Shown: positions 19,310 through 22,379 of the stretch, piece by piece
Layout: each line of letters begins with the position of its first letter
How positions within the stretch are numbered: the stretch's first letter is position 1
Origin: an uncultured Clostridia bacterium
GTDB taxonomy: Bacteria > Bacillota > Clostridia > Lachnospirales > Anaerotignaceae
DNA: 43,671 bases
Reading direction: 5' to 3'
Assembly: GCA_944381455.1 (NCBI GenBank)
Contig: CALWLF010000061.1
Span: 1 to 43,671, forward strand
Position numbers and translations under genes: made by a program
The notes under the pieces: generated by a model
What the model was told of the DNA's origin: nothing
Database searches by the model: none
Seen by the model: the letters and a program-made list of their open reading frames with translations, nothing else

Positions 19310-19543
19310 TCAAGGCAACGTAAAAGTTTTTGGGCGCTTCCAAGGGAAATGGCTCTGTTTTGTAAAAAAAGAAAAAAGTAAGTAAAATGCATTTCCTTTT
19401 CAGCCCTTTGTTTTCACACCCACATTTGCTACAACTGTTTTGTCAAAAAGATGGTGGGCTTGCGCTAAAATTCTTTCCAAACTTGTTAGAAACTGCTTTT
19501 TTCCAGAAACCTTTCCAAAAAAACGGCTGCCAAAAAAACGAAA
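19310..19543. other. Gene-free stretch between alkaline phosphatase promoter and ilvE terminator
   Basis: With the flanking signals this makes a 408-base gap between genes. A plus-strand open frame crosses it but continues as the antisense of ilvE, has no ribosome binding site, and is rejected. GGAAATG and CATTTCC near 19344-19397 form a weak, widely spaced dyad. Nothing else is seen. Confidence 0.5.
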
Positions 19544-19579
19544 ACAGCCGGCATCCTCTGTTTCAAGGATGCCGGCTGT
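19544..19579 (-). terminator. Terminator of the hisS-ilvE operon
   Basis: A perfect 13-bp stem, ACAGCCGGCATCC (19544-19556) with GGATGCCGGCTGT (19567-19579). The minus strand continues with a T-rich run. Confidence 0.9.
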
Positions 19580-19643
19580 CTTTTTCTTCTTTCAATCTTT
19601 GCCAAAGTGGAACTGGCATGCGTTCTGTTGTTCTGCAGGCTGC

Positions 19644-20708
19644 TTATTCCACCACAGTAACCCAGCCATATTCATCTTCCAGTTTCCCGCTTTGGATCCC
19701 GGTGATGGTGTCATATACCAAATGGGAAATTGGTCCAATTTCACCATTATTGATGATCACCGTTTCCCCTTCCCACATCAATTCGCCTACAGGGGAAATA
19801 ACGGCTGCCGTACCGGTGCCAAATACTTCGTTCAGATGTCCGCTCTTTGCAGCGCGGAATACTTCATTGATGGAAATTTTCCGTTCTGTAACTTTATACC
19901 CTTTGGCTTTCAGCAGTTCCAAAGCGCTTCTTCTGGTGATGCCAGGCAGGATGCTGCCGTTTAATTCTGGTGTAATCACTTCGCCGTCGATGACAAACAT
20001 GATGTTCATGGTGCCCACTTCTTCAATAAATTCTTTGTGAACGCCATCCAGCCACAGCACCTGGGTATAGCCGCGTTTTTCTGCCGTTTCCTGAGCAATC
20101 AAGCTTGCTGCATAGTTGCCGGCCGTTTTGGTAAAGCCCATGCCGCCACGAACGGCACGGCAATACTGGTCTTCCACATAAATGCGGACAGGGTTGATGC
20201 CTTCTTTGTAGTAAGAACCTACTGGGCAGAGAATCACCATAAATTTATAGGTTTTGGATGGATGCACGCCAACATGTACGTCCGTTGCAATGACGAAAGG
20301 ACGGATGTAGAGGCTGGTGCCTTCGCCTGTGGGGATCCAGTCTTTTTCCACTTCCACTAAGGTTTTGATGGCTTTTACGCCAAAGTCCACATCGATGTGA
20401 GGGATTACCAGACGGTCATTGGATGTGTTCAGCCGTTCCATGTTCTTTTCTGGACGGAACAGACGAATGGTGCCATCCTGGCCGCGATAGGCTTTCAATC
20501 CTTCAAAGGTGGTCTGGCCATAGTGCAGCACCATGCTGGCCGGATCCATAATCAAAGAATGATAAGGCACAATGCGGGCATCATGCCAGCCAATGCCTTC
20601 GGTATAGTCCATTTCAAACATATGATCGGTGTAATAGTTGCCGAAGCCTAGGTTATTCATATCTGGTTTTTCTTTTGGTGTTTTGGTTAATTCAATTTTG
20701 ATATCCAT
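19644..20708 (-). CDS. ilvE: Branched-chain amino acid aminotransferase
   Basis: A 354-residue fold-type IV PLP aminotransferase that interconverts Val, Leu and Ile with their 2-oxo acids. Markers are HYGQTTFEGLKAYRG (near 65-80), YIRPFVIATD, the PLP Lys in GGMGFTKTAGNYAAS (near 205), the WLDG..KEFIEEVGTMNIMF block, and GILPGITR-like SILPGITRRSALEL. The ATG at 20708 follows GGAGG by 8 bases; the frame could extend five codons to a TTG that overlaps that site. It starts 32 bases after the hisS stop with no terminator between, so it should share the T-box-controlled transcript. Confidence 0.95.
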   Translation of the reverse strand: MDIKIELTKTPKEKPDMNNLGFGNYYTDHMFEMDYTEGIGWHDARIVPYHSLIMDPASMVLHYGQTTFEGLKAYRGQDGTIRLFRPEKNMERLNTSNDRLVIPHIDVDFGVKAIKTLVEVEKDWIPTGEGTSLYIRPFVIATDVHVGVHPSKTYKFMVILCPVGSYYKEGINPVRIYVEDQYCRAVRGGMGFTKTAGNYAASLIAQETAEKRGYTQVLWLDGVHKEFIEEVGTMNIMFVIDGEVITPELNGSILPGITRRSALELLKAKGYKVTERKISINEVFRAAKSGHLNEVFGTGTAAVISPVGELMWEGETVIINNGEIGPISHLVYDTITGIQSGKLEDEYGWVTVVE

Positions 20709-20740: not shown

Positions 20741-22003
20741 TTATGATTGTGTATGAGTAAAGAGCGCTGTAAGCTGCTCGAAAGAAACGTGTGTGACGGT
20801 GCCGTCTTCCATGTTTTTTACATCGGCAGCAGCTTCTGCCACTTCCGTATCGCCTAAAATCATAGAATAGCGGGCGCCAATTTTATTGGCATATTTCATC
20901 TGTGCCTTCACGCTGCGCCCCACGGTATCGCACTCGGCAACAATGCCTTGCCGCCGCAGCTGATAAGTCAGGGCCATGGCCTTGCGCAGCCCATCTTGGC
21001 CGATGGAGCCGATATAAATCTGCCGCGTGGGCGCATAAGCCGCTTTGCCGTTTTGTGCCTCCAGCGTCAGCATCAGCCGTTCCATGCCCAATCCAAATCC
21101 AACGGCGCCGGTGGCCGGGCCGCCGCATTCTTCCATCAGTTTGTCATACCGGCCGCCGCCGCAGACGGTGCCCTGGGCGCCAATGGTGTCGGTGACAAAT
21201 TCAAAGACTGTCCTGGTGTAATAATCTAAGCCGCGGACAATTTTGGGATCAATTTCAAAGGGAATGCCCATTTCTGTCAATAACTGCTGCAGCGTTTCAA
21301 AATGGCCGCGGCATTCTTCATCCAGGCAGTCCAGCACCAGCGGCGCATTTTGCAGCACCCTCTGGCATTTTTCTTCTTTGCAGTCCAGCACCCGCAGCGG
21401 ATTTTTTTCAAACCGGGCGCGACATTCGGGGCAAAGCTCCTGCAAGTGATCGCCAATGAAGCTGCGCAGCGTCTGGTTATATTTGGCCCGGCACTGGGGG
21501 CCGCCCAGGCTGTTCAGTTTCAGCGTAATGTTTTTGAGTCCAAAGGAGCGGATCAGTTCATAAGCCACCGAAATGGCTTCCGCATCCAGCGCCGGTGCAT
21601 AGGAGCCAAACAGCTCCACCCCAAACTGGTGAAACTGCCGCTGCCGCCCTGCCTGGGTATTTTCATAGCGGAACGTGGGGGCAATATAAAACAGTTTGGT
21701 GGGCTGGGCATTGTTGTGCATCCCGTGCTCGATATAGGCCCGGGCTACACCAGCCGTGCTTTCCGGCCGCAGGGTAATGCTGCGGTTGCCTTTGTCTTCA
21801 AAGGTATACATTTCCTTTTGGACAATGTCTGTCGTATCGCCTACACTGCGCAAAAACAGCTCCGTATGTTCAAAAATAGGGGTGCGGATTTCTTCAATGC
21901 CAAAATTTTTACATAAACGGCGCATCGTCGCTTCCATCTGCTGCCAAAGCTGCATCTCTGCGCCATAAATATCTTTTGTTCCTTTTGGTGCCTGTGTCAA
22001 CAT
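20741..22003 (-). CDS. hisS: Histidyl-tRNA synthetase
   Basis: A 420-residue class II synthetase that charges tRNA-His. It opens with LTQAPKGTKDIYG, has motif 2 in FYIAPTFRYENTQAGRQRQFHQFG (near 105-125), the histidine-specific RGLDYYTRTVFEF motif (near 255), and motif 3 as GAVGFGLGMERLML. The C-terminal anticodon domain (from about 325) has IYIGSIG and the CDTVGRSVKAQMKYANKIGA block. The ATG at 22003 lies 7 bases after GGAGG, just past the T-box terminator. The frame open upstream to 22039 runs into the terminator and is not used. ilvE follows. Confidence 0.97.
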   Translation of the reverse strand: MLTQAPKGTKDIYGAEMQLWQQMEATMRRLCKNFGIEEIRTPIFEHTELFLRSVGDTTDIVQKEMYTFEDKGNRSITLRPESTAGVARAYIEHGMHNNAQPTKLFYIAPTFRYENTQAGRQRQFHQFGVELFGSYAPALDAEAISVAYELIRSFGLKNITLKLNSLGGPQCRAKYNQTLRSFIGDHLQELCPECRARFEKNPLRVLDCKEEKCQRVLQNAPLVLDCLDEECRGHFETLQQLLTEMGIPFEIDPKIVRGLDYYTRTVFEFVTDTIGAQGTVCGGGRYDKLMEECGGPATGAVGFGLGMERLMLTLEAQNGKAAYAPTRQIYIGSIGQDGLRKAMALTYQLRRQGIVAECDTVGRSVKAQMKYANKIGARYSMILGDTEVAEAAADVKNMEDGTVTHVSFEQLTALFTHTQS

Positions 22004-22009
22004 ACAAAA

Positions 22010-22287
22010 ACCTCCAAGAATAAAAAAAAGAGCTCCCATCGCAAAGGACGAGAGCTCGTGGTACCACCTTCATTCCGGCCAAACAAACCAGGCCGGCACT
22101 CAATCGGCCGTTAACGGAGCCACCCGTCTACACTTACACAACCGCACAAGCGGCCTTCATCGTAAAAGCTCCCAAGCGACCTTCCCGCCCCGCATCTCCC
22201 AAAATGCCTTTCAGCCTATGGACATTTTTCTCTTTTGGCTGCCAAGGGGTACTCCTCTTGTTCATCGCTTTTATCATATTGATTTAT
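22010..22287 (-). ncRNA. T-box leader upstream of hisS-ilvE
   Basis: On the minus strand the T-box sequence AATGAAGGTGGTACCACG (about 22057-22074) matches the consensus. Stem I spans 22273 to 22163, closed by TAAAAGC/GCTTTTA, with a GATGA/GGA kink-turn, an AGTA strand (22250-22253), an AG-bulge region and a distal loop with AGGCTGAA. The base after TGG is T (22063), which would pair with A73. The 3' strand of the specifier loop reads GAAGGTCG (22177-22184), so the specifier may be GGT or GTC; no His codon is in place. Bacterial tRNA-His has C73, tRNA-Val A73. Uncharged cognate tRNA would block the terminator. Confidence 0.93.
22022..22057 (-). terminator. T-box terminator hairpin
   Basis: GAGCTC arms (22052-22057 and 22030-22035) with an inner partial stem, followed on the minus strand by eight T (22029 down to 22022). 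It is mutually exclusive with the T-box antiterminator, which uses part of the same 5' arm. Confidence 0.9.
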
Positions 22288-22293
22288 TTAGAA

Positions 22294-22322
22294 ATTCTAA
22301 CCAATAAAAGTGCATTTGTCAA
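22294..22322 (-). promoter_or_regulatory. Sigma-A promoter of the T-box/hisS-ilvE transcript
   Basis: A perfect TTGACA (22317-22322) and TAGAAT (22294-22299) with 17 bases between, on the minus strand; start near 22287. Confidence 0.85.
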
Positions 22323-22379
22323 GAGTTAATTGCACTTTTTTTGTATTTTTTTAATAAATTTCTGTTCTGTGGTCTGACC

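Follow-up and report, generated by a model that had tools for sequence, protein, structure and literature searches.

T-box leaders are switches in which an uncharged tRNA bridges a specifier codon and a bulge in the leader RNA, giving read-through, and their specifiers are used for gene annotation on the assumption that specifier and downstream gene agree in amino acid. The window analyzed here, a 43,671-nucleotide contig (CALWLF010000061.1) of an uncultured Clostridia bacterium, carries such a leader in front of hisS, the gene for histidyl-tRNA synthetase (HisRS). A sequence-only reading of this DNA had suggested that the leader may sense valine and control the second gene, ilvE, with hisS as a passenger. 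We asked which tRNA the leader would read and which of the two genes it would serve.

A T-box leader and a predicted hisS-ilvE transcription unit

The features of the locus are as follows.

22294 to 22322, minus strand: promoter (-35 TTGACA, 17-nt spacer, -10 TAGAAT; 11 of 12 consensus positions)
22041 to 22274, minus strand: T-box leader RNA with stems I to III and antiterminator (Rfam RF00230, 112.5 bits, full length)
22178 to 22180, minus strand: specifier codon GUC (Val), from the covariance model alignment
22063 to 22066, minus strand: T-box bulge UGGU, which pairs with A73, from the sequence
22022 to 22057, minus strand: intrinsic terminator, an 11-bp stem followed by 8 T, which competes with the antiterminator
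20741 to 22003, minus strand: hisS, histidyl-tRNA synthetase (TIGR00442, 507 bits; ATG at 22003 behind GGAGG)
19644 to 20708, minus strand: ilvE, branched-chain aminotransferase (PRK13357 model, 491 bits; TIGR01123, 405 bits)
19541 to 19582, minus strand: intrinsic terminator closing the hisS-ilvE unit (18-bp stem and T tract)

The leader matches RF00230 over model positions 1 to 219 (all 219 positions) with a score well above the gathering score of 93 (E = 3e-24), and it is the sole Rfam match above gathering score within the window. It contains the competing antiterminator and terminator and a UGGN bulge; from its sequence it is a canonical T-box of a well-known kind, in agreement with the earlier description of a textbook T-box before hisS-ilvE. 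A near-consensus promoter precedes it, and hisS follows. From the T tract of its terminator to the hisS start the distance is only about 20 nt, and we found no promoter in this interval. The gap between hisS and ilvE is 32 nt (ATG of ilvE at 20708), and no terminator was found in it, as the sequence-only reading had stated. Because there is one recognized promoter and a terminator follows only after ilvE, hisS and ilvE are predicted to be a single transcription unit; inclusion of further genes in the operon was ruled out by the strong terminator 3' of ilvE. The product of ilvE carries out the last step of valine synthesis. This gene is the only ilvE-like match at E < 1e-60 in the genome, and ilvC and ilvD are both present. 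Between hemZ and the leader, the promoter is overlapped by an inverted repeat at 22290-22340 (AAAAGTGCA ... TGCACTTTT), which could be a weak hemZ terminator.

Specifier codon and discriminator match

The specifier strand reads GAA (22184-22182), G, GUC (22180-22178), G, and C. The covariance model places GUC, a Val and not a His codon, in its specifier columns, and the "+0" frame of TBDB, which lies 2 to 4 nt away from the bulge's 3' end (PMC7778990), picks the same triplet. UGG is followed by T, at 22063, which makes the T-box bulge UGGU. We identified the tRNAs of the genome with ARAGORN and read their discriminator bases by the acceptor stem; tRNA-Val (anticodons UAC and CAC) has A73, tRNA-His has C73, and tRNA-Gly has U73. 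The UGGU bulge is complementary to the A73 discriminator of tRNA-Val. The sequence-only reading had held that the base after TGG pairs with A73 whereas tRNA-His has C73, and that valine satisfies both recognition elements, and both points were borne out in this genome. TBDB disregards the discriminator for His T-boxes, as C73 can be paired; UGGU alone is thus insufficient to exclude His, and it is the missing His codon that excludes it. As had been claimed for the window leader, neither CAC nor CAU occurs in any frame of the specifier loop, and the same is true of 11 orthologous leaders, so a His reading was rejected. By specifier and discriminator together, the T-box is predicted to be specific for tRNA-Val.

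The other T-boxes of the genome, which has 14, served as a control. We named the genes behind them from translations; some specifiers were read by eye where the model alignment was loose, and the serC T-box was unreadable. The valS leader of the same genome has GUA with UGGU. Elsewhere we read CUC for leuS and leuA, UUC for pheS, UGG for trpB, GCU for alaS, UAC for tyrS, and ACC for thrS, as well as GGC with UGGA for the glycyl-tRNA synthetase and UGC with UGGA for cysE-cysS. Most of these T-boxes match their genes, which validates our method of reading specifiers. Among the T-boxes of this genome, as judged from these readings, the hisS-ilvE leader stands out as clearly not matching its first gene.

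Related leaders and their linkage to ilvE

The leader is present in 12 species (the window's own, G002, G005, G006, G013, G014, G016, G020, G026, G028, G034, and the named contig L070), which are related, such that the counts given here are not independent events. The specifier encodes Val in 12/12, with GUA in 10 and GUC in 2 (the window's own and G002); GUC is restricted to the window's genus, and sister genera have GUA. The bulge is UGGU in every one of the 12, so that the G after UGG for which the sequence-only reading suggested looking in relatives does not occur; the G005 leader, matched by cmscan, reads UGGUAUC where UGGNACC is expected. All 12 have a TTGACA-17-TARAAT promoter, and compensatory changes occur among them in the stem of the terminator. 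The base before the specifier varies among G, T, and A. The nearest relative (G001) lies outside this comparison, since its assembly contains neither hisS nor ilvE.

In all 12 leader species, ilvE lies directly 3' of hisS. Where family members have no ilvE behind hisS, hemZ and hisS abut, and none of those checked has a T-box before hisS. Five relatives (G007, G010, G017, G023, and G031) have hisS-ilvE without a T-box, indicating that control of ilvE is not universal; cmscan found no T-box further upstream of hisS-ilvE in contigs L052, L054, L055, and L057. In a HisRS tree, the 12 species with the T-box fall together in one group, with G007 as the sole addition. Neither ilvC nor ilvD was detected in G007 (L052), an assembly that is only 84% complete, and it is possible that the switch was lost there along with the pathway. 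The likely order of events, to judge from this distribution, is that hisS-ilvE came first, followed by gain of the T-box and possibly its loss in G007.

Comparison with other T-boxes and origin of the leader

Two known kinds of leader resemble this one. T-boxes before hisS-aspS in Bacillales and Clostridia are treated in the literature as one switch for two synthetases and have been suggested to sense both tRNA-His and tRNA-Asp (PMC4342826). In the more distant Clostridia that we used as an outgroup, hisS T-boxes preceded hisS-aspS in 15/15 cases checked (aspS being recognized from its translation). Their specifiers are mostly GACAC, GACAU, or AACAC, in which an Asp or Asn codon (GAC/AAC) overlaps a His codon (CAC/CAU), and their bulges are mostly UGGC. 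Two of these leaders (L078 and L089) have AACAC, Asn overlapping His, in place of GACAC. Like the window leader, they head an operon of two genes in which hisS comes first and the specifier fits the second; however, they offer GAC or AAC together with CAC or CAU, mostly with UGGC, whereas the hisS-ilvE leader has no His codon, has UGGU, and is followed by ilvE as the second gene. The valS T-box leaders share with the window leader a Val specifier, UGGU, and the overall anatomy, and are its nearest relatives in a T-box tree. They differ in preceding valS and in having GUA, whereas the window leader precedes hisS-ilvE and has, in the window's genus, GUC.

In the T-box tree, which included 65 T-boxes, a branch with support of 88/91 set the leaders of hisS-ilvE and valS apart from those of hisS-aspS, and FastTree nested the hisS-ilvE leaders among those of valS. 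One common origin for all hisS-ilvE leaders was not rejected (p = 0.30). The grouping with valS indicates that the family's valS T-box was probably copied to a site before a pre-existing hisS-ilvE; we infer the direction of copying. Trees built from short T-box sequences are poor (PMC2494555), and we therefore take copying from valS to be likely rather than proven.

Another genus of the same family (g3; genomes G018 and G029) has a free-standing ilvE with its own GUA/UGGU T-box (L262:2657-2910 and L267:2661-2913); ilvC was not seen in either genome. This leader resembles that of the window in its Val specifier (GUA in g3), its UGGU bulge, and its predicted control of ilvE. It differs in that no hisS is present and in that it groups with leuS and leuA T-boxes, as FastTree placed it. 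Joining the g3 ilvE leaders with the hisS-ilvE leaders in a shared clade was rejected (p = 0.02); the Val T-box on ilvE in g3 was thus probably a second, independent recruitment.

A proposed valine switch for ilvE

The reading that we favor, and consider very probable from these sequence comparisons, is that a valine T-box was recruited for ilvE and controls the hisS-ilvE unit, with the essential hisS as a passenger. When valine is short, the anticodon of uncharged tRNA-Val would pair with GUC or GUA in stem I and the ACCA end of the same tRNA with UGGU; the antiterminator would thereby be stabilized and hisS-ilvE transcribed. When tRNA-Val is charged, the terminator would form. We infer both that the leader binds tRNA-Val and antiterminates and that ilvE is the selected target, for the selective reason given here, with hisS carried along as the first gene. 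With ilvC and ilvD present and a single ilvE-like match at E < 1e-60 in the genome, valine sensing fits ilvE. A point against this reading is that placing an essential synthetase under the wrong tRNA seems costly. This is essentially what the sequence-only reading proposed, and its proposal gains support from the linkage to ilvE, the synonymous specifier changes (GUA/GUC), the grouping with valS leaders, and the Val T-box on the lone ilvE of a sister genus. The switch type itself is known; what sets this case apart is that a valine switch precedes an operon whose first gene is hisS. In the part of the literature that we covered, no Val T-box before hisS-ilvE was described.

Other explanations of the leader were weighed against this one. 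The T-box could be weakened or nonfunctional in the window's genus, where GUC lacks a Watson-Crick partner among the tRNA-Val species detected. Only UAC and CAC anticodons were found for tRNA-Val in this genus (the window's own assembly and that of G001, each ~98% complete), with which the third specifier position would not be Watson-Crick paired to GUC; Rfam, ARAGORN, and a pattern search with UAC and CAC as positive controls found no tRNA-Val(GAC) in either, and the same pattern does recover it in G022 and G024. The GUA specifier of relatives, retained in the genome's own valS leader, pairs with UAC, whereas GUC in the window leader has no detected GAC partner in assemblies that are incomplete. 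Against loss of function, UGGU, the promoter, the terminator, and the other elements are intact in both GUC species (the window's own and G002), and GUC is frequent (53 of 237 Val codons in the window's genes), so tRNA-Val(UAC) must decode it unless the GAC gene is unassembled. The tRNAs for Asn and Ile were likewise not found in this assembly, which is therefore incomplete for tRNAs. Either U34 of tRNA-Val(UAC) reads GUC, as would be needed in translation, or a GAC gene is unassembled, and we regard a weakened switch as doubtful.

We also consider it unlikely that the leader descends from a clostridial hisS-aspS (Asp/His) T-box in which GAC drifted to GUC, which would make valine a recent or degenerate accident. 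Such leaders are common in Clostridia, the change takes one substitution, and a tree constrained to join hisS-ilvE with hisS-aspS leaders was 38 log units worse yet not rejected (p-AU = 0.099). However, the GUA of 10/12 leaders needs two changes from GAC, with GUC in one genus only; UGGU is universal in hisS-ilvE leaders, as opposed to mostly UGGC before hisS-aspS; the best tree joins the leader to valS T-boxes; and in early family members hemZ and hisS abut with no T-box between them. Deliberate regulation of HisRS by a noncognate tRNA, with valine supply as a real signal for hisS, seems very unlikely. Transcription of the essential hisS always has to run through the Val-sensing terminator, with no promoter in between, and the arrangement is kept across several genera. 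The association is nonetheless accounted for by ilvE alone, since the T-box is missing wherever ilvE is missing and an ilvE that stands by itself in another genus carries a Val T-box. There is, moreover, no known need that links HisRS to valine, and we found no evidence of a gain for hisS from valine control. A passenger hisS is the simplest reading. Finally, the sequence-only reading had offered GGT (Gly) beside GTC (Val) as the specifier. The covariance model upheld GTC; GGU does sit one base earlier in the window sequence, but in four relatives its first base is replaced by T or A, and tRNA-Gly, with U73, would need UGGA, the bulge found in the genome's own glycyl T-box. The Gly reading has practically no chance of being right and was rejected.

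Implications for T-box annotation

The usual annotation rule points to His at this locus, whereas the likely target of a valine switch recruited for ilvE is the second gene. The locus also lets one trace how a T-box was probably carried, as a copy of the valS leader, to a new operon; with the ilvE leader of g3, it makes two recruitments of Val T-boxes to ilvE, apparently independent, within a single family. It would leave an essential synthetase under noncognate tRNA control, an arrangement that is directly testable. TBDB weighs agreement with the ontology of the downstream gene when it chooses a specifier frame (PMC7778990).

In the same genome, a T-box at L012:1501-1712 precedes a TRAP-type transporter. 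Its specifier is UUC (Phe) or UCC (Ser), and its UGGU bulge favors Phe. From its sequence, this T-box may be a clue to the substrate of the transporter.
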